A DNA stretch of 64,000 bases from positions 3,844,001 to 3,908,000 of the forward strand of contig NZ_JALN02000001.1 in the NCBI RefSeq assembly GCF_000559085.1, written 5' to 3'. The DNA is from Mycolicibacterium aromaticivorans JS19b1 = JCM 16368 (lineage in GTDB: Bacteria > Actinomycetota > Actinomycetes > Mycobacteriales > Mycobacteriaceae). Below, piece after piece: positions 4,687 to 19,259 of this stretch. A model generated the notes under the pieces. The model did not search any database, was not told the DNA's origin, and saw nothing but the letters and a program-made list of their open reading frames with translations. The translations under genes were made by a program, and so were the position numbers. Position 1 is the stretch's first letter. The number at the start of each line of letters is the position of its first letter.

Positions 4687-5772
4687 ATGGCCGGACCACT
4701 GCACGGCTTGCGAGTCATCGAATTGGCGGGCATCGGACCCGGTCCGCATGCCGCGATGATCCTCGGTGACCTGGGCGCCGACGTCGTCCGCATCGACCGG
4801 CTCGGCAAAGGCACCGGCACCCCCAGCAACGATTACCTGCTGCGCAACCGTCGCTCGGTCGGCGCCAACCTCAAGGACCCGAACGACCGCGACATGGTCC
4901 TGGGTCTGATCGCGAAGGCCGACGTCCTCATCGAGGGATTCCGTCCCGGTGTCACCGAACGACTCGGGCTCGGACCGGAGGACTGCGCCAAGGTCAACGA
5001 GCGCCTGATCTACGGCCGCATGACCGGGTGGGGCCAGGAAGGGCCGCGCAGTCAACAGGCCGGCCACGACATCAACTACATCTCGCTCAACGGCTTGCTG
5101 CACGCCGTTGGCCGGGTCAACGAACGTCCCGTCCCGCCGCTGAACCTGGCCGGCGACTTCGGTGGCGGCTCGATGTTCCTGCTGGTCGGCATCTTGTCCG
5201 CGCTGTGGGAGCGGGAGCGCTCCGGCAAGGGCCAGGTGATCGACGCGGCGATGGTCGACGGGTCCAGCGTGCTGGCCCAGATGATGTGGGCATTCCGCCA
5301 CATGGGCATGTGGAGCGACGAGCGCGGAACCAACATGCTCGACACCGGTGCGCCCTACTACGACACCTACGAGTGTTCCGACGGGCGGTACGTCGCGGTC
5401 GGCGCGATCGAGCCGCAGTTCTACGCCGAACTGATCGAGAAGCTCGGTCTCAACGACGCCGACCTGCCCGATCAGAACGACATCACCCGCTGGCCGGAAC
5501 TGCGCGCGGTGCTCACGGACACCTTCGGCAAGCACGAGCGCGACCACTGGGCCACGGTGTTCGCCGGAAGCGACGCCTGCTGCACGCCGGTGCTGTCGTT
5601 CGCCGAGGTCGACACCGAACCGCACAACACCGAGCGCAACACCTTCTACACCGAGGCGGGCTCGACGTTCCCGGCCCCCGCCCCCCGGTTCTCCCGGACC
5701 GGGCTCGACACCCCGGCCGCACCCGGCGTACCGGGAGCCGACAACGAGGCCGTCCTGCGCGACTGGGTATAG
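4687..5772 (+). CDS. mcr: Alpha-methylacyl-CoA racemase
   Basis: A 361-residue family III CoA-transferase-fold enzyme that epimerises (2R)- and (2S)-methylacyl-CoA, needed before beta-oxidation of methyl-branched and sterol side-chain acyl-CoAs. The catalytic residues known from the M. tuberculosis MCR (His126, Asp156, Glu241) appear with an offset of one as His127 (AGHDINY), Asp157 (LAGDFGGG) and Glu242 (AIEPQFY). A GGAGG ribosome site lies about 10 bp before ATG 4687. It is the first gene of a probable three-gene unit with an SDR and a nitronate monooxygenase-like protein, and is divergent from echA. Confidence 0.95.
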
Positions 5773-11570: not shown

Positions 11571-11747
11571 ATGGCCGAATCAGAGTCCGAACCGCAGGAC
11601 GACAACAAGCGCAAGTTCCGCGAGGCGCTCGAGCGCAAGAAGGCGAAGTCTGCGGGCGGCTCGGCGCACACGGACAGCGGCCCCAAGCAGCCCCGCTCGC
11701 ACGGGCCGGTGGAGAACCGGCGGGAATTCCGCCGTAAGAGCGGCTAG
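11571..11747 (+). CDS. DUF5302 family small protein (58 aa)
   Basis: A highly charged 58-residue protein, MAESESEPQDDNKRKFREAL at the start and RREFRRKSG at the end, matching the small DUF5302 family of actinobacteria. It is probably intrinsically disordered; the function is unknown. TAGTCT (11559-11564) is 6 bases before ATG 11571, suggesting its own leaderless promoter just 21 bp after the previous gene. Its TAG stop overlaps that of the convergent MFS gene in a shared CTAG. Confidence 0.8.
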   Translation: MAESESEPQDDNKRKFREALERKKAKSAGGSAHTDSGPKQPRSHGPVENRREFRRKSG

Positions 11748-12988
11748 CCGGCCGCCTGCTCGGAAAGCTCTGCCGCAGGGCGTGATTCCTGCCAGAGGAT
11801 GGCTGCCAGGCAGACCAGTGCCAGCACCCCGACCGCGATCGCGAACACGGTGCCGCCGGTGCGCAGCCCCCACGCCTGCGCGGCGAAGCCCTCCCCGATC
11901 ACCGGGATCGAAATCGCGACGTAAGCCACCACGAAATAGGTGGAGCTGACCTCGGCTCTACGTTCCGCCGGAGTGCGTTCGGCGACCGCCGCCAAGCCCC
12001 GGCTGAAGCTGATGCCCTGACCGGCGCCGGCCACCACGGCCGCGGCGATCAGGCCGGCCAGTGACGAATAATGCAGGGCGACAACCAGAATGCCCATGCC
12101 GACCGCGAGTATGCCGCAGCCCAGGGCGACCGCGCGCTGCGGTTCGATGCGGGTGCCTGCGATCTGAGCGATCGCCGAGGCACCGAAGATCGAGCCGGCC
12201 ATCAAGCCGGCCAGCGCGTGATTGCCGATACCGATGACGTTGGTCAGCAGGGACGGCGCCACCGAGGTGAACAGCCCCGTGACGGCAAAGCCGGCGAAGG
12301 CGGCCAGTGCGGCGGTGATGAACACCGACCGCACCTCGGGCGGCACCGAAAGCCGTTGCAGGCCGAGCTTTCCGGTGCGGCTCGACGTCTCGGGCACCGA
12401 GAGGATCGCGACTGCGGCCAGCACCATCAACCCGATGTGGATGAGGTAGGTGAGCTTCAGCGGGCTCGGCGCGTACTGCGCCAGGATGCCGGCCAGGATG
12501 GGCCCGATGCCGAGGCCGCCGATGTTGGCGATGGTTGCGACCGCCGCCGCACGGCTCCGCCAGCTCGGCGGCGCGGCTTCGATGACCGCCGCGGTGGCGG
12601 TGCCGGTGAAGACGCCCGCCGACAACCCGGACAGCACCCGGCCCACCAAGAGCTCGGGCACCGAGTCCGCGAACAGGAATATCACCGCACTGGCCAGCGC
12701 GGCGCCGACACCGGCCAGCAGCACCGGCCGTCGGCCGATGGCGTCGGACCAGCCACCGAACACCAGCAGCGCGAACAACACTCCGCCGGCATAGGTGGCG
12801 TAGATGACGGTCGTCGTCAGCACTGCGAAGTGCATCTGCTCGGAGTACAGCGCGTACAGCGGGGTGGGCAGCGTGGTGCCGACCATGATCGCGGCGAACG
12901 CGTAGGCCAACAGGGCGAAGGCGAAACCTCGCCGGGGCGGGGTCGGTGTCATGGTTCGGCGGGCAGGAGCGTAGCGACCTGGGGTCAT
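11744..12988 (-). CDS. MFS transporter (DHA1-type)
   Basis: A 414-residue major facilitator with about 12 helices. The motif A loop GGWSDAIGRRPVLLAG lies between helices 2 and 3, and motif C-like glycines (GLGIGPILAGIL) in helix 5 favour a proton-driven drug exporter of the DHA1 group. The substrate is unknown. ATG 12988 gives a 12-residue leader before a second possible start (ATG 12952); neither has a clear ribosome site, so the start is uncertain. It lies downstream of the actP-like gene on the same strand, with a 75 bp gap. Confidence 0.8.
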   Translation of the reverse strand: MTPGRYAPARRTMTPTPPRRGFAFALLAYAFAAIMVGTTLPTPLYALYSEQMHFAVLTTTVIYATYAGGVLFALLVFGGWSDAIGRRPVLLAGVGAALASAVIFLFADSVPELLVGRVLSGLSAGVFTGTATAAVIEAAPPSWRSRAAAVATIANIGGLGIGPILAGILAQYAPSPLKLTYLIHIGLMVLAAVAILSVPETSSRTGKLGLQRLSVPPEVRSVFITAALAAFAGFAVTGLFTSVAPSLLTNVIGIGNHALAGLMAGSIFGASAIAQIAGTRIEPQRAVALGCGILAVGMGILVVALHYSSLAGLIAAAVVAGAGQGISFSRGLAAVAERTPAERRAEVSSTYFVVAYVAISIPVIGEGFAAQAWGLRTGGTVFAIAVGVLALVCLAAILWQESRPAAELSEQAAG

Positions 12989-13063: not shown

Positions 13064-14710
13064 CTAGTGGTGCGTGGCCTTCTCCGCGCCCACCCCGGTC
13101 AGCGACCGGACCTCCATCTCCGCGTTGATCTCCGGATCGCCGGCGTCCTTCGACGTCAGCGTTCCCACAATGCCGAGGACGAAGGCCAGCGGAATCGACA
13201 CGATGCCGGGGTTGGCCAGTGGGAACCAGTCGAAGCTCGCGCCGGGGATCATCGCGGCCTTGTTGCCCGAGACGGCCGGCGAGAAGACGATCAGCACCAG
13301 GCAGCTGATCAGACCGCCGTACATGCTCCACAGGGCGCCGCAGGTGTTGAACCGCTTCCAATACAGCGAGTACACAATCGTCGGCAGGTTGGCCGAGGCC
13401 GCCACCGCGAACGCCAGCGCCACCAGGAACGCGACGTTCTGGCCGTTGGCCAGGATGCCCAAGCCGATCGCGGCGACACCGAGCACCACCGCGGTGATCC
13501 GGGAGACCCTGACCTGCTCCTCCTCGGTCGCTGGAGCCTTTCCGTGGGCTCTTCGCAATACACTGGCGTAGACGTCGTGGGCGAACGATGCCGACGCGGT
13601 GATCGTCAGACCCGCCACCACGGCCAGGATGGTGGCGAAGGCCACCGCCGAGATGATGCCGAGCAGGACCACCCCGCCGAGCTGGAATGCGAGCAGCGGT
13701 GCGGCCGAGTTCTGTCCGCCCGGGGCCGCCAGGATCTTGTCGGGGCCGACCATGGCCGCCGCGCCGTAGCCAAGCGCCAGGGTGAACAGGTAGAAGGCGC
13801 CGATCAGGCCGATCGCCCAAACCACCGACCGCCGAGCCTCTTTCGCGGTCGGCACCGTATAGAAGCGCATCAGCACGTGCGGCAGGCCCGCGGTGCCCAG
13901 CACCAGCGCCAGCCCCAGTGACAGCAGGTTGATCTTCGAGGTGGTGTTCGCGCCGTACTGGGCGCCGGGGGCCAGCACATCGCGGCTGGCGACACCCTTG
14001 GTGGTGGCCTCGTGCACCATCTGCTGCGCCGAACCCAGGATGTCGGAGAAGTTCAGGCCGAACTTGACCAGCACCATGGCCGTCATGATGGCCGCGCCTG
14101 CGATCAGCAGCACGGCTTTGATGATCTGCACCCAGGTGGTGCCTTTCATGCCGCCGACCAGCACGTAGACGATCATCAGCACACCGACCACCGCGATCAC
14201 GAAGGATTGGGCCGTGCGGCCGTGGACGTCGAGCAGCAGCGCGACCAGGCCACCGGCACCGGCCATCTGCGCCAGCAGGTAGAACAACGACACCGTCAGC
14301 GTCGAGGTGGCCGCGGCCACTCGGACCGGCCGCTGCTTGAGCCGGAAGCTCAGCACGTCGGCCATCGTGAATTTGCCGGTGTTGCGCAGCAATTCGGCGA
14401 CCAGCAGCAGGGCGACCAGCCAGGCCACCAGGAAGCCGATCGAATAGAGGAAGCCGTCATAGCCGTACACCGCGATCGCGCCGGCGATGCCGAGAAAGCT
14501 TGCCGCAGAGAGATAGTCACCGGCGATGGCGATACCGTTCTGCGGTCCGGAGAACGCCCGGCCGCCGGTGAAGAACTCGGTGGCGTTGGTGTTGGTGCGG
14601 CCGGCGCGGATCACGATGAACAACGTGATGAGCACGAAAGCCACGAAGATGCTGATGTTGACGACCGGATTGCCGATCCGGGCTGCCTCGGCCAGGACGG
14701 TGGTGCTCAC
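13064..14710 (-). CDS. actP: Cation acetate symporter, SSS family (ActP-like)
   Basis: A 548-residue sodium:solute symporter with 13-14 helices. Early motifs FFTGGRAFSGPQNGIAIAGDYLSAASFLG and later GTAGLPHVLMRFYTVPTAKEARRS are hallmarks of ActP/MctC-type acetate, pyruvate and propionate carriers. GTG 14710 is chosen because it overlaps the stop of the upstream DUF485 gene in GTGA and directly precedes the first membrane segment. DUF485-ActP pairs are standard for acetate uptake (yjcH-actP in E. coli). Expected role: uptake of acetate or related monocarboxylates across the inner membrane. Confidence 0.9.
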   Translation of the reverse strand: MSTTVLAEAARIGNPVVNISIFVAFVLITLFIVIRAGRTNTNATEFFTGGRAFSGPQNGIAIAGDYLSAASFLGIAGAIAVYGYDGFLYSIGFLVAWLVALLLVAELLRNTGKFTMADVLSFRLKQRPVRVAAATSTLTVSLFYLLAQMAGAGGLVALLLDVHGRTAQSFVIAVVGVLMIVYVLVGGMKGTTWVQIIKAVLLIAGAAIMTAMVLVKFGLNFSDILGSAQQMVHEATTKGVASRDVLAPGAQYGANTTSKINLLSLGLALVLGTAGLPHVLMRFYTVPTAKEARRSVVWAIGLIGAFYLFTLALGYGAAAMVGPDKILAAPGGQNSAAPLLAFQLGGVVLLGIISAVAFATILAVVAGLTITASASFAHDVYASVLRRAHGKAPATEEEQVRVSRITAVVLGVAAIGLGILANGQNVAFLVALAFAVAASANLPTIVYSLYWKRFNTCGALWSMYGGLISCLVLIVFSPAVSGNKAAMIPGASFDWFPLANPGIVSIPLAFVLGIVGTLTSKDAGDPEINAEMEVRSLTGVGAEKATHH

Positions 14711-15057
14711 TTGGCCGCGCCTTCCATCTCGGTGCGGATAGCCTCGGCGCGCGGGTCGAGTTCCCGATTGGCGAACCGCACGTACAGACCCGTGATGAGG
14801 AACGTCGTCACGAACTGGCCAAGACCGATGAGCAGCCCGACGTTGATGTTGCCCCACACCGTGATGGCCATGAAGTCGTGGGCGAAGGCGCCCAGCAACA
14901 CATAGGTGGCGTACCAGATCAGGAAGAACGCGGTGGTGGGGAACACGAAGCGACGCAACGTGCGGCGCAGCTCCTGAAACTCGGGACTGGCCTGCATGGA
15001 CAGGTAGTGGGCCCCGCTGGGATGGGTCTCCCGTGGCGGCAGGTCGGTTGTGGACAC
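14707..15057 (-). CDS. DUF485 membrane protein, symporter partner (YjcH-like)
   Basis: A 116-residue protein with two membrane helices (about residues 40-60 and 75-98) preceded by SPEFQELRRTLRRFVFPTTAFFLIWYATYVLL, the DUF485 signature. DUF485 proteins are encoded immediately before ActP-type symporters. GTG 15057 is preferred over ATG 15102 because GAGGAG lies at about 8 bases spacing, and because a -10 hexamer at 15103-15108 would put the transcript start just downstream of 15102. The gene is coupled to actP through a GTGA overlap. Confidence 0.85.
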   Translation of the reverse strand: MSTTDLPPRETHPSGAHYLSMQASPEFQELRRTLRRFVFPTTAFFLIWYATYVLLGAFAHDFMAITVWGNINVGLLIGLGQFVTTFLITGLYVRFANRELDPRAEAIRTEMEGAAK

Positions 15058-15081
15058 CGCGTGCTCCTCAGCTCGAAAGGT

Positions 15082-15108
15082 GTGAACTCCGGTCGTGTTC
15101 ACAGGCTA
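15082..15108 (-). promoter_or_regulatory. Promoter -10 with adjoining inverted repeat for DUF485-actP
   Basis: On the minus strand TAGCCT (15103-15108) is a good -10 hexamer. Immediately downstream, at and beyond the predicted transcript start, lies an inverted repeat GTGAAC-N9-GTTCAC (15082-15102), a possible operator or 5-prime hairpin. The 5-prime leader to GTG 15057 would be about 40 bases. Confidence 0.5.
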
Positions 15109-15152
15109 TTGAGAGGTGCATCACAGTCCTAGAGCGCGCGCGGACCATGCGT

Positions 15153-15182
15153 TGAACGGTTGGCGGGCGGCGCTGAACGGTT
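15153..15182 (-). promoter_or_regulatory. Direct repeats fitting a LytTR operator
   Basis: TGAACGGTT occurs at 15153-15161 and again at 15174-15182, exactly 21 bp apart start to start, i.e. two helical turns. LytTR proteins bind two 9-bp direct repeats separated by about 12 bp, with a core resembling TACNGTTAT, to which AACGGTT is similar. The pair lies about 45 bp upstream of the -10 hexamer of DUF485-actP, a suitable place for an activator. A LytTR regulator is encoded 2 kb away at 17290-18069. Confidence 0.55.
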
Positions 15183-15189
15183 TCTGGGG

Positions 15190-16920
15190 TCAGCCGCGCG
15201 GGAGTCGCTCCAGGCCCATGCCCAGACGCTCCGGCACATGCATGCGGGCGAAGATGCGCGCCACATCGGGTGGCACGTCGGTCCGGGTGACACGGCTGAC
15301 GAGCACCATCGTGGCGAACGCCAGCGGAACGGTGATGGCGGCGGGGTAGCCGATCAGCGTGGTCAGCCAGCCGCCGAGCACGTCGTCGCCGACCCAGCCG
15401 GTGATCGCGACGAGGATGGCCAGACCGGAGGCCAGTGCGCCGACCGCCAACCCGGCGATCGCCCCGGCCGCGGTCAGCCCGCGCCACCAGATGCCGAGGA
15501 TCAGCAGCGGGCACAGCGTGGACGCCGCGACGGCGAAGGCCAGACCGACTCCGCGCGACAGCTCCAGGACGGGCGCGACGACCGAGAGCGGAATCGGGAT
15601 GAGGCCGGCGATCAGCGCCACCGTCCGGAAGTCGCGGACCCGCCCGCGCAGCACGTCGGTGGACAACGCACCGGCGATGCTGACCAGCAGTCCGGACGAG
15701 GTCGCCAGGAATGCCGCGATGGCGCCGGCCGCGACCAGCGCGCCAAGCAGTTCGCCGGGCAGCCCGGCGACGGCGGCCGACGGAAGCAGCAGCACCGCGG
15801 CGTCGGCCTTGCCGGTGATGAGCAGCTGAGGCACATACAACCGGGCGAACACCCCGAGCAGCACGGGGAACAGATAGAACAGCGACATCAGGACGATCAC
15901 GCTCAGCGCGGTTCGGCGCGCGGCGCGCCCGTCGGTGTTGGTGTAGAAGCGGACCAGCACATGGGGGAGGCCCATGGCGCCGAGGAATGTCGCCACCATG
16001 ATGGAAAACACTTGGTAGAGAGGATGTTTCCCGCCCAAGCCACCGCCGCTGACGATCCACTCCGAGCCGGTGGCAGGTGCCCCGACGACGACGGGGGTCT
16101 GAGCTCCGGCGGCCAATGTCAGTGTGCTGCCCTTCTGCAGGCTGTACCGGCCGGGACTGTGCAGGGAGCCGCTGTGCGTTGGGCCGGTCACCGTCACACC
16201 GGCTGGGTCGGCGACCGTGACCACCACGTCGGTGTCGATGCTGACGACGGTCGGCTGGTCCACCGTGGGTGGGAGCGGGCCGCCGAGTGCGGGATGCTCG
16301 TGCCCGAAGTGCATGAGCAGTGCCAACGCGGGCACTGCGACCGCGGTCAGCTTCAGCCAGTACTGAAACGCCTGGACGAACGTGATCGAGCGCATGCCGC
16401 CACCGACGACGTTGGCGATCACGATCCCGCCGACCGCCAGCGGACCGATCCAAACCGGCACGCCGAGAAGGGCTTTGAGGGCAAGTCCGGCGCCCTGATA
16501 CTGGGGCACGAGATAGAAGATGCAGACGGTGGCGACCACGAGCATCGCGACCCGGCGCACACGCGGCGAGCCGAGCCGGAACTCCGCGAAATCCGGCACG
16601 GTGTAGGCGCCGGAACGGCGCAGGGGAGCGGAGACGAACAGCAATAGACCCAGGTAGCCCGCCGTGAAGCCGACCGGGTACCACAGCGCGTCGGCGCCGT
16701 ACTTCGCGATCAGACCGGCCACCCCGAGAAACGAGGCAGCCGATAGGTATTCACCCGAGATCGCGGCGGCATTCCAGCGTGGGCCGACAGTGCGGGACGC
16801 CACCAGGAAGTCGGATGTGGTGCGCGACAACCGAACCCCGTAGGCGCCGACGGCCACCGTCGCCACCGCGGCGGCGATCAGGCCGCCGGCGGTCAGGGCC
16901 GTCGCCGTCGATCCGCTCAT
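15190..16920 (-). CDS. Second SSS-family cation/monocarboxylate symporter
   Basis: A 576-residue sodium:solute symporter paralogous to the ActP-like gene, with FLVASRTVGPRWNAAAISGEYLSAASFLG at the start and GAMGLPHVLVRFYTNTDGRAARR in the middle. Between roughly residues 210 and 295 it carries an additional, beta-rich, Val/Thr/Gly-rich stretch (DTDVVVTVADPAGVTVTGP and neighbours) that looks like an extracytoplasmic loop domain. The start overlaps the stop of the upstream membrane gene in ATGA. It is downstream of a LytS/LytTR system, so its expression or activity is probably tied to sensing of a small carboxylate. Confidence 0.9.
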   Translation of the reverse strand: MSGSTATALTAGGLIAAAVATVAVGAYGVRLSRTTSDFLVASRTVGPRWNAAAISGEYLSAASFLGVAGLIAKYGADALWYPVGFTAGYLGLLLFVSAPLRRSGAYTVPDFAEFRLGSPRVRRVAMLVVATVCIFYLVPQYQGAGLALKALLGVPVWIGPLAVGGIVIANVVGGGMRSITFVQAFQYWLKLTAVAVPALALLMHFGHEHPALGGPLPPTVDQPTVVSIDTDVVVTVADPAGVTVTGPTHSGSLHSPGRYSLQKGSTLTLAAGAQTPVVVGAPATGSEWIVSGGGLGGKHPLYQVFSIMVATFLGAMGLPHVLVRFYTNTDGRAARRTALSVIVLMSLFYLFPVLLGVFARLYVPQLLITGKADAAVLLLPSAAVAGLPGELLGALVAAGAIAAFLATSSGLLVSIAGALSTDVLRGRVRDFRTVALIAGLIPIPLSVVAPVLELSRGVGLAFAVAASTLCPLLILGIWWRGLTAAGAIAGLAVGALASGLAILVAITGWVGDDVLGGWLTTLIGYPAAITVPLAFATMVLVSRVTRTDVPPDVARIFARMHVPERLGMGLERLPRG

Positions 16921-17297
16921 GGTGGGCTCTCCTCGTCGACCACACCCATGAAGTCACGCTCGCCCTGTTCGGCCAGCTTGATGAACAGCCGACCGACCGC
17001 GTAGAGCGCCGGATACACCAGCACCGCCAGGGTCAGCCAGTTCAGCCGAACCCCGAATATGGTGGCGGCGGACAACTCTGGGAACACCGCGTTGAGCAAC
17101 GGCAGCGCCGCCATCCCGCCGGCCACCACCGCGGCCAGTCGCAGCGCCAGTCCGAGCTGGGCGCGCACCAGTCCGCGCACCAGCGCGTCGCCGACCTCGG
17201 TCTGCTCCTGCACCTCCACCCGGGTGTGCACCAGGCGGCTGCCGCGCCGGTGGGCCAGCACCACACGCTCACGTTGCGGGCGACCCGGCCTAGTCAT
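16917..17297 (-). CDS. Two-helix membrane protein, probable symporter partner
   Basis: A 126-residue protein with a charged N-terminal half (RPGRPQRERVVLAHRRGSR) and two hydrophobic helices (about residues 50-72 and 84-107), ending in an acidic tail. It occupies the same position relative to the SSS symporter as DUF485 does for ActP, and so may be the equivalent small subunit. Its 3-prime end overlaps the symporter start by 4 bp, and its 5-prime end overlaps the response regulator gene by 8 bp. Confidence 0.75.
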   Translation of the reverse strand: MTRPGRPQRERVVLAHRRGSRLVHTRVEVQEQTEVGDALVRGLVRAQLGLALRLAAVVAGGMAALPLLNAVFPELSAATIFGVRLNWLTLAVLVYPALYAVGRLFIKLAEQGERDFMGVVDEESPP

Positions 17298-18069
17298 CGG
17301 TTGCCCCCGGCCGGAAGGTCCGCATCGGATCGCGGATCAGCCGGTCGCGTAATTCGCGGGCCTGGCGGCGGCTGACCGGAAGCTCGACCGGCGCCGACGC
17401 GCCGTTGGCGCGTAACCGCACCATCGTGGAGGCGCCGGAGGTGCGCAGCCCGGTCACCATGTTCAGCGCGACGAGATAGGACCGATGCACCCGCTGGAAT
17501 CCGCGGCTGCGCCAGCGATCCTCCAAGGTGCTCAACGGAATTCGAACCAGATGCGAGCCGGAGGCGGCGTGCAGGCGGGCGTAGTCGCCTTCGGCCTCGA
17601 CCCAGCCGATGGTGTCGCAGCGCACCAACTGGGTGACCCCGCCGAGCTCCACCGGGATGGTGTCGGCCTGCGGCTCGTCGGCGGGCGGGGCCGACTCTGC
17701 GGCGCGTGCCGACACCACCCGCCGGACCGCCGCGTCGAGGCGCTCCTTGCGAATCGGCTTGAGCAGATAGTCCAGGGCGCCGACCTCGAAGGCGGCCACC
17801 GCCTTGTCGTCGTGCGCTGTCACGAACACGACGGCGGGCGGGTGAGTGAAATTGCTCAGCACACTGGCCAATTCGAGACCAGAGAGCCCGGGCATGTTGA
17901 TGTCCAGGAAGATCGCGTCCACGGTGCGTTCGTTGATGATCCGCAACGCCGACGTGGCATCGCCGGCGCCGGTCACCTCGGCGATGTCGGGATGCTCGCC
18001 GAGCAGGTAGGTGAGCTCGTCGAGCGCCGGGGCTTCATCGTCGACCGCCAGCACCCACAGCCCTGCCAT
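17290..18069 (-). CDS. LytTR-type response regulator
   Basis: A 259-residue regulator. The receiver domain (residues 4-120) has the acidic pair Asp10/Asp11, phosphoacceptor Asp56 in IFLDINMPG, Thr84 and Lys104 (LLKPI). The C-terminal LytTR domain (about 150-245) has DTIGWVEAEGDYARLH and RVHRSYLVALNMV, the typical DNA-binding beta fold. LytTR regulators bind pairs of direct repeats near promoters. It lies 8 bp downstream of the kinase gene and upstream of the symporter genes. By analogy with E. coli BtsSR and YpdAB, which control pyruvate transporters, it may control monocarboxylate uptake here. Confidence 0.92.
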   Translation of the reverse strand: MAGLWVLAVDDEAPALDELTYLLGEHPDIAEVTGAGDATSALRIINERTVDAIFLDINMPGLSGLELASVLSNFTHPPAVVFVTAHDDKAVAAFEVGALDYLLKPIRKERLDAAVRRVVSARAAESAPPADEPQADTIPVELGGVTQLVRCDTIGWVEAEGDYARLHAASGSHLVRIPLSTLEDRWRSRGFQRVHRSYLVALNMVTGLRTSGASTMVRLRANGASAPVELPVSRRQARELRDRLIRDPMRTFRPGATDD

Positions 18070-18077
18070 GGTTCTCC

Positions 18078-19259
18078 TTAAACCCGTACGCCCGCGCGGA
18101 ACTTGGGCACCCGCATGATCACCTTCGTGCCCGCACCCGGGGCGGTCTCGACCACCAGACCGTAGTCGTTGCCGAACGCGGCGCGCAGGCGATGGTCGAC
18201 ATTGCTCAGCCCGACGTGGGCGGCCTGCTCCCCGTCGCCCAGGATGTCGCCGTGCCCGGAGCGCAGGGCGTGAGGATCCATGCCGATGCCGTCGTCCTCC
18301 ACGCTGATGACGCAGTCGGAACCCTCATTGCGAGCGATGATTTCGATCGATCCGCCCTGCCGCCCGGCCAGGCCGTGGCGCACCGCGTTCTCGACCAGTG
18401 GCTGCAACGCCAGGAACGGCACCACTACGGTCAGCACCTCGGGTGCGATCTGCAGGGTCACCGACAGATTCGGCCCGAACCGGGCCCGTTCAAGGGTGAG
18501 GTAGCGGTCGATGTTGCGCAGCTCGTCGGCCAGCGCCGTGTAGGGGCCTGCCGAACGGAACGAGTAGCGGGTGAAGTCGGCGAACTCCAGAATCAGGTCG
18601 CGGGCCCGGTCGGGGTCGGTGCGGACAAACGAGGCAATCGTGTTGAGCGCGTTGTAGATGAAGTGTGGGCTGATCTGGGCGCGCAGCGCCAGCACCTCGG
18701 CCCGGTCGAGGCGGGCGCGCGACGCGTCGAGCTCGGCCAGCTCGAGTTGGCTGGCGGCGTAGCGCGCGACCTCTGCGACGGCACCCAGCATGCCCGGCGA
18801 CGGTTCGGCGGTGTTGACGACGACGAGCACGCCGATCGCCATGCCGTCGTCGTCGAGCAGCGGTTGGGCCACCACCGCGGGCGTCTGGTCGCGGGCGAGC
18901 ACCCGGCGCTGCCCGGAGATCGCGTCGCGGGCGGTGTGGTGGCAGACCTCGAGAATGGCCGGCGTCCACAACGCGGCGCCGGGCGGATCGAGCGCGAGCA
19001 GGGCCGTATCGCCGTCGTAGAGCGCGACACCGTCCGAGCCGGTGAGACCGCGCAGGTGCGGGGCGGCACCGCCTGCCGAGTCGGCGTCCAGGCCCTTGCG
19101 CAGCGAGCGGGCCGCCAGCGAGGCGGTGTGCAGCGCGGCGTGCACGGTCCGCTCGGCTGGCGTGGTGACCACGCTGCGGGTCAGCACGGCGACCGCGCCG
19201 ACGATCAACGCGACGGCGGCGAGCGCGACGGCCAGCGCGAGCGCTACCGCACCCGACAT
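18078..19259 (-). CDS. Sensor histidine kinase, LytS/BtsS (His_kinase) type
   Basis: A 393-residue kinase with one N-terminal membrane helix (about residues 5-28), an unassigned GAF-like sensory region (40-170), a short coiled coil and the LytS-type phosphoacceptor block AQISPHFIYNALNTIASF with His199. A HATPase domain follows (LQPLVENAVRHGL; DDGIGMD). Classic LytS/BtsS proteins have many membrane helices, so this is a single-span variant and the ligand may be sensed by the GAF-like part. GGGAGAG lies shortly before ATG 19259. It is the first gene of the four-gene kinase-regulator-membrane protein-symporter operon. Confidence 0.9.
   Translation of the reverse strand: MSGAVALALAVALAAVALIVGAVAVLTRSVVTTPAERTVHAALHTASLAARSLRKGLDADSAGGAAPHLRGLTGSDGVALYDGDTALLALDPPGAALWTPAILEVCHHTARDAISGQRRVLARDQTPAVVAQPLLDDDGMAIGVLVVVNTAEPSPGMLGAVAEVARYAASQLELAELDASRARLDRAEVLALRAQISPHFIYNALNTIASFVRTDPDRARDLILEFADFTRYSFRSAGPYTALADELRNIDRYLTLERARFGPNLSVTLQIAPEVLTVVVPFLALQPLVENAVRHGLAGRQGGSIEIIARNEGSDCVISVEDDGIGMDPHALRSGHGDILGDGEQAAHVGLSNVDHRLRAAFGNDYGLVVETAPGAGTKVIMRVPKFRAGVRV

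Follow-up and report, generated by a model that had tools for sequence, protein, structure and literature searches.

A LytS-type histidine kinase and a LytTR response regulator are encoded in Mycolicibacterium aromaticivorans JS19b1 together with two proteins of the sodium:solute symporter (SSS) family, which raises the question of which genes the regulator controls, through which site and in response to which ligand. We analysed the locus in a stretch of 64,000 nucleotides (positions 3,844,001 to 3,908,000 of contig NZ_JALN02000001.1; hereafter the window). Kinase, regulator, a small membrane protein, an SSS protein (here SSS1), a DUF485 protein and the monocarboxylate transporter MctC all lie on the minus strand in this order. 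The arrangement given in a first-pass annotation, a kinase-regulator-membrane protein-SSS operon followed on the same strand by a DUF485-ActP operon, is thus confirmed for all six genes. That annotation also held that the regulator switches on the second operon, and our analysis points the same way. Judged from sequence, the locus very probably encodes a two-component switch of the LytS/LytTR kind that is dedicated to monocarboxylate uptake and would act through an operator 5' of DUF485-mctC; acetate is the likeliest ligand. No title in the open literature that we searched concerned this system.

The putative LytTR operator (15149-15181, minus strand) is a 12-bp direct repeat with a period of 21 bp and half-sites at 15170-15181 and 15149-15160; in the coding direction it reads ACCGTTCAGCGC-N9-ACCGTTCAACGC. 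The observation that had drawn attention to it, two copies of TGAACGGTT at 21-bp spacing, is borne out (15153-15161 and 15174-15182). Binding sites of LytTR proteins consist of two repeats of 9-11 nt, 11-13 nt apart, according to the available part of the source (PMC4847170). The repeat in the window fits this form, as ACCGTTCA-N13-ACCGTTCA or, taken as 9-nt repeats, as AACCGTTCA-N12, and it is conserved; the element derived for the family is RCCGYTCRYCGC-N9-RCCGYTCRYCGC. The pattern AACGGTT-N14-AACGGTT occurs exactly once in the 64-kb window and in none of 100 shuffled versions. Scanning the 6.3-Mb genome with the family motif, we found the window site as the sole match without mismatch and two more at two mismatches, while the backward control of the same genome gave six matches at up to two mismatches. 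The regulator (17290-18069, minus strand; 259 aa, with PF00072 and PF04397) is the only LytTR protein of this genome (one PF04397 match), and we count the pairing of one LytTR protein with one perfect operator in favour of the proposed switch.

For comparison, the loci of 40 relatives were fetched; three of them (L069, L070 and L072) have no DUF485 gene in the available DNA and were dropped, which leaves 37 loci plus the window. Genus and family labels used below are guesses, except for named loci and E. coli. A weight matrix trained on the same 38 loci for which scores are given assigns 33.4 to the operator in the window and 13.9 to the runner-up there. Support that does not depend on this training comes from a motif-free spacing test, from the promoters of regulator-less relatives and from more distant loci. 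In the spacing test, the DNA between SSS1 and DUF485 in the 38 loci is most similar to itself at a shift of 21 bp, with a mean of 9.18 of 11 bases matching, against 6.3-7.3 for the 27 other spacings; at least 9 of 11 bases match at this period in 28 of the 38 loci, and at the next best spacing, 20 bp, in nine. One might suspect that the repeat arose by chance in GC-rich intergenic DNA, since degenerate forms of the motif (up to two mismatches) are about as common across whole genomes as the backward control; in 201 genomes the real and control counts at two mismatches were similar. Whole-genome pattern searches are therefore unspecific, and we relied on the weight matrix combined with local position. 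The distinctness of the 21-bp period, the tight linkage to the regulator, and the conserved position and phase speak against chance. We rejected that origin on the spacing test, the confinement of matches to a single position and the regulator linkage, and we assign it a practically negligible probability.

The proposed check of searching the repeat pattern upstream of orthologous DUF485-actP operons was carried out, and the operator was found 5' of DUF485-mctC in 37 of the 38 regulator-bearing loci, with a score of at least 24.4 in each. Conversely, it is missing from all 18 DUF485-mctC promoters of regulator-less relatives, seven of them from the genus of the window (best score 1.1). These promoters come from 41 hand-picked regulator-less genomes, of which four are from the class set; 20 of the 78 genomes without a regulator match were negative by name and the others by absence from the match list. 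The regulator itself is present in 123 of 201 family genomes and 165 of 345 class genomes, the latter set including the window's family. In G182, G192 and G515 it matches in two pieces, which reflects either an insertion or a split made by the search.

Position is conserved as well. On both strands of 41 sequences (the 40 fetched loci and the window), all matches above 18 bits fall at one place, directly upstream of DUF485-mctC or, in L069, of SatP-AcsA; in two sequences a further copy overlaps the first at a shift of 21 bp, and L068, L070 and L072, the latter two being short records, have no match above this threshold. SSS1 lies within 1.5 kb after the regulator in all 41. The kinase is located 1.0-2.2 kb upstream in five of the 40 fetched loci and is inverted in one, and DUF485-mctC follows in 37 of them (two records end early, and L069 carries other genes). 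Where DUF485 lies 0.7-1.9 kb away from SSS1 (L046, L049, L057 and L063), the operator stays beside DUF485. Autoregulation of the kinase operon is unsupported: no operator above 18 bits was found near the kinase in the 41 sequences, and the best score in ten shuffled loci was 10.3.

The association extends to named loci, for which we took the best 80 of 586, a set that partially overlaps the other genome sets. All 62 Mycobacterium-, Rhodococcus-, Nocardia-, Gordonia-, Williamsia- and Hoyosella-type loci that hold DUF485-mctC have the operator, three of them with scores of 20-22; this grouping follows record names, and two of the 62 are metagenome-assembled genomes (MAGs) with other labels. The operator is thus found 5' of DUF485 in 62 of the 80 named loci, one more record (L170) ends after the operator, and 17 are without it. 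Among 20 wider-family loci, 12 hold DUF485-mctC, and ten of these have the operator in front of it (L120, L121, L122, L125, L126, L127, L129, L130, L132 and L133); it lies upstream of the kinase in L120 and is divergent in L130. L115, L117, L118, L119 and L124 contain no target genes of these kinds and no operator above 20 (in L117, scores of 16.2 and 13.2 occur elsewhere).

The layout of the promoters suggests how the regulator may act. The first-pass annotation had placed a -10 element, TAGCCT, downstream of the repeats, and we find it at 15103-15108 (minus strand), 40 bp after the operator. From 113 loci with an operator scoring above 20, 95 distinct loci remained after sequences at least 80% identical had been dropped; they contain 79 TAnnnT elements within ~105 bp after the operator, and loci without such an element add nothing to the analysis. 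The offsets cluster at 40-41 (4), 50-51 (5), 61-63 (60) and 82-85 bp (7), with single elements at 36, 93 and 102. The 19 elements outside the main peak keep the phase of 61.7 at a period of 10.5 bp (V 0.74), with a nominal p of ~3e-6 that is overstated because the lineages are related. The operator-to-minus-10 distances of 40, 51, 61-62 and 83 bp thus differ by about whole helical turns, which suggests that the regulator is a phase-locked activator; the distance in the window is about two turns shorter than in most relatives.

Between operator and -10 element lies a CRP/GlxR-like box, TGTGATGCACCTCTCA (15110-15125, minus strand), with 9 of 10 bases of the CRP/GlxR consensus. All 37 promoters scored have a box with at least 8 of 10 bases in the 75 bp that follow the operator, compared to 2.2% of shuffles. 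The box is not specific to the circuit, since 11 of the 18 regulator-less promoters also have such boxes in the 250 bp before DUF485 (a count for which no null was computed). In four regulator-less loci of genus g4 (L138, L140, L141 and L143) the DUF485-mctC promoters carry two CRP-like boxes 33-34 bp apart.

The closest known system is BtsSR (YehUT) of E. coli with its target btsT (yjiY), which likewise combines a LytS kinase, a LytTR regulator and a monocarboxylate carrier as target. The first-pass annotation had drawn an analogy to BtsSR and YpdAB, and the relation to BtsSR is closer than was claimed because the operator itself matches: the operator of YehT (BtsR) has the same form as the actinobacterial element, and the YehT-site oligonucleotide contains ACCGCTTA-N13-ACCACTCA (PMC4847170, available part). 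With the 8-bp core of the actinobacterial profile, the btsT site, at a modest 14.7, outscores all others in the 12 kb surrounding E. coli btsT (runner-up 10.4). Identity to the E. coli proteins is 33% for the regulator (compared to BtsR) and 33% over 223 aa for the kinase core. Against the BtsR equivalog model NF008677 the regulator scores 151.4 bits, below the cut-off of 246, so it appears to resemble BtsR and to act on a BtsR-type site while falling outside the BtsR equivalog. Both promoters have a CRP-like site (the one at E. coli btsT was read by eye), with the box downstream of the operator here and upstream in E. coli. The systems differ in that the target here is the SSS protein MctC instead of BtsT and that a second SSS protein with its subunit is encoded with the kinase. 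YpdA/YpdB-yhjX is also a LytS/LytTR pair controlling a carrier, but its operator motif is different, the YpdB site being a direct repeat of GGCATTTCAT (PMC4847170, available part).

A number of observations weigh against the proposed switch or narrow it. The 38th locus, L068, has a weak in-register copy of the operator (15.2 bits, TACGTT at offset 61). Among the 17 named loci without operator, eight hold DUF485-mctC, all of them Pseudonocardia, Actinomycetospora or an uncultured Corynebacteriales (L222-L225, L228-L230 and L233); all other components are kept there, and a search for a 21-bp repeat common to the eight upstream of DUF485 found none. The circuit has therefore diverged in this group or acts elsewhere. 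L217 (Gordonia alkaliphila) carries the kinase, regulator and SSS1 genes, yet both mctC and the operator are missing from its 19 kb; L131 contains kinase, regulator, SSS1 and DUF485-mctC-acs and no operator, and L116 has a weak one (12.4). In the other E. coli stretch scanned, a site inside btsS scores 14.9, above the btsT site, so the profile score is not by itself decisive for the latter. When up to one mismatch was allowed, an operator search in ten genomes and its backward control returned 12 matches each, so that only the position of a match counts. As to the ligand, linkage to AcsA supports acetate indirectly, and MctC also carries pyruvate and propionate according to the part of the source available (PMC7918813).

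By position, the matches in other genomes fall before related genes. The four perfect matches in the ten genomes all lie before carriers, with TAnnnT at offset 42-43. Three precede an OFA-type gene in three genomes of one genus, g50, which we take to be Streptomyces as a guess, and one is located ~0.3 kb before mctP, the next recognised gene after the operator in that genome (632.2, cut-off 625). The OFA assignment was examined in L240, where the protein reaches 305.3 (cut-off for an L-lactate transporter, 320) and shares 25% identity with E. coli YhjX; by eye, the other two copies begin with the same residues. The target in this genus is a relative of the carrier controlled by YpdAB. The same operator precedes SatP-AcsA in L069, in L134 and, with one mismatch, in L244, where it lies between SSS1 and SatP-AcsA and is the only one of eight one-mismatch matches with a query gene; L123 has a weak copy (17.4) before AcsA. 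Since the same operator stands before SatP-AcsA, an OFA-type carrier and MctP, the common theme of its targets, and hence of the predicted regulon, appears to be monocarboxylate import.

AcsA (acetate--CoA ligase) follows mctC at 32-240 bp in seven of the 41 family sequences and 12 of the 80 named loci, and lies in or beside the target operon in L122, L125, L129, L132, L123, L069, L134 and L244; AcsA and SatP were named by family model in L069 and by similarity elsewhere. The first-pass annotation had named acetate, pyruvate and propionate without choosing among them; the linkage to AcsA and SatP favours acetate as the probable ligand. A circuit that responds to pyruvate, or to lactate or propionate, would agree with the BtsR type of the operator, BtsSR being a pyruvate system, with the operator before the OFA-type carrier, whose score comes near the L-lactate cut-off, and with mctP as the next recognised gene in another operator-bearing genome. 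The occurrence of AcsA in or beside the target operon across many lineages and the absence from the kinase of the 5TMR_LYT domain, in which BtsS binds pyruvate, argue against it, and we consider a ligand other than acetate unlikely. Ligands may also differ between lineages.

How, then, would the kinase detect its ligand? The protein (18078-19259, minus strand; 393 aa) belongs to the LytS type (PF06580, 79.7 bits; PF02518, 46.3 bits), and its nearest named locus among the 80 is a Mycobacterium sp. MAG (97% identity). By eye it has a single, poorly conserved membrane span at the N-terminus, followed by a GAF-like region, His_kinase and HATPase_c, with no evident extracellular domain. His_kinase (PF06580) and HATPase_c are recognised in all 31 kinases scanned and GAF (PF01590) in 11 of them; the window kinase reaches 19.8 bits for GAF, below the cut-off of 22.4. 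The first-pass annotation had described the kinase as different from E. coli sensors on account of its GAF-like domain. This part does not stand, since BtsS also has a GAF domain (PMC10653868, available part), whereas a difference does exist in the pyruvate sensor 5TMR_LYT of BtsS, which the window kinase does not match and which is not one of the 11 families hit by the 31 kinases at E up to 0.01.

Because the kinase lacks an evident extracellular domain, SSS1 and the small membrane protein become candidates for a part in ligand detection. SSS1 (15190-16920, minus strand) is a VC_2705-like sodium:solute symporter homologue with PF00474 (TIGR03648, 231.5 bits, below the cut-off of 320.75). It was found at full length in four of four regulator-bearing genomes and in none of the 41 regulator-less genomes searched; DUF485-mctC is kept in 18 of these 41, and the same number have only partial SSS1 matches, with 32-43% identity, that lie in mctC, beside DUF485. 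Among the named loci, 78 of 80 contain SSS1, and the records of the other two end early. SSS1 accompanies the kinase-regulator pair even where the target is a different one or has moved, with one exception, a paralogous pair in L128. That locus (regulator turned to the plus strand) has a second kinase-regulator pair without SSS1 and an operator at 4920-4952 (score 32.5, TAnnnT offset 83) just behind the regulator gene, where no target gene was recognised on the operator's strand. SSS1 residues ~208-300 (window 16021-16299) form a 70-90-residue insert that is short or missing in several wider loci, in which SSS1 is 491-509 residues long compared to ~575-590 in most. The small membrane protein (16917-17297, minus strand) has no Pfam hit in its window copy. 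Of a set of 22 such proteins, 12 match DUF485 and seven DUF4212 at E up to 0.1 (best 4.2e-8 and 5.4e-6), and a profile comparison matches DUF485 with a probability of 74%; it is probably a diverged DUF485/DUF4212-type subunit of SSS1.

We tentatively propose, at somewhat less than even confidence, a split transporter-sensor made up of the LytS kinase, SSS1 and the DUF485-like subunit of SSS1. In this reading, SSS1 would have been kept as a receptor or flux sensor that signals to the kinase, and the LytTR partner of the kinase would induce a homologous carrier as well as, in some lineages, acetyl-CoA synthetase. The first-pass annotation had instead viewed SSS1 and MctC as two uptake carriers of different affinity that form a high/low-affinity switch, SSS1 being in that case simply a constitutive carrier. 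The residues of the presumed sodium-site helix, placed by analogy to PutP and vSGLT, are in line with such a role: SSS1 has an invariant Thr (59 of 59) beside Ser (42) or Ala (17), where MctC has Ala and Val (48 of 50 each). The mapping is by analogy because SSS1 has no close solved relative (none by single-sequence search, and five weak ones by profile, best E 0.00027). A reading of SSS1 as a dead carrier is unsupported by this helix, and with the Thr kept, SSS1 may transport as well. Its own DUF485-like subunit also suits a second carrier. Yet no operator is present at the SSS1 operon, SSS1 travels with the kinase-regulator pair, and it is absent from every regulator-less genome searched, even where DUF485-mctC is kept; a useful carrier should sometimes survive alone. 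The co-loss is not decisive, as genes of one operon can disappear together. A sensory role appears to explain the pattern no less well than a second uptake function would, and we regard the affinity switch as doubtful.

The proposed split sensor resembles CrbS/CrbR (MxtR/ErdR), in which an SSS protein is coupled to a kinase and acetyl-CoA synthetase is among the targets, as far as the available part of the literature goes. In CrbS-type proteins, SSS domain, STAC domain and kinase form one polypeptide (PMC7918813, available part). The same part of this source finds, at first glance, no SSS-HisKA proteins in Gram-positive bacteria, makes no mention of LytTR or LytS, and calls the role of the SSS domain in SSS-linked kinases still enigmatic. 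Here, in contrast, SSS1 and the kinase are separate genes and the pair is of the LytS/LytTR type. In UhpABC-uhpT, the kinase depends on a carrier homologue as its receptor, and the carrier proper is what the regulator induces; its protein families are unrelated to the LytS/LytTR-SSS1 set.

The predicted target operon begins with the DUF485 gene (14707-15057, minus strand; PF04341, 125.3 bits), encoding the small subunit of an ActP/MctC-type carrier. Its start, given before as 15102, is re-assigned by sequence reading and most likely is the GTG at 15057. The putative target MctC (13064 to ~14710, minus strand) most likely starts at ~14710 and scores 899.8 bits with NF058657, above the equivalog cut-off of 670. 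A major facilitator superfamily (MFS) carrier gene (11744-12988) follows downstream on the same strand, a position kept in many Mycobacterium relatives, and may share the transcript with mctC.

The sequences show the operator itself, how strictly it accompanies the regulator in the family, how it resembles the BtsR site of E. coli, its phase and the various targets that it precedes, and from them we infer the following course of binding, phosphorylation-dependent activation and sensing. The kinase operon, to which SSS1 and the small subunit belong, lacks an operator and would probably be made independently of the signal. SSS1 and its subunit would probably take part in detecting the ligand, presumably acetate; this is the less certain step. 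The kinase would phosphorylate the LytTR regulator, as expected from the families. Two regulator protomers would bind the 21-bp-spaced direct repeat upstream of DUF485-mctC, which footprints support, and activate the promoter from a fixed helix face, while the adjoining CRP/GlxR-like box may add control by carbon status. Induced MctC and its DUF485 subunit would then import the acid.

With this assignment, a widespread actinobacterial LytTR regulator gains a concrete target, an operator and a likely substrate class, and one operator form appears to be common to E. coli BtsR and actinobacteria. The stepwise spacing between operator and promoter amounts to a natural helix-phasing experiment. The locus also provides a natural case of an SSS protein that, encoded separately from its kinase, may be the sensor; if this is true, the split sensor would be what actinobacteria have, in separate polypeptides, in place of the fused CrbS acetate switch, following the logic of UhpC and UhpT.

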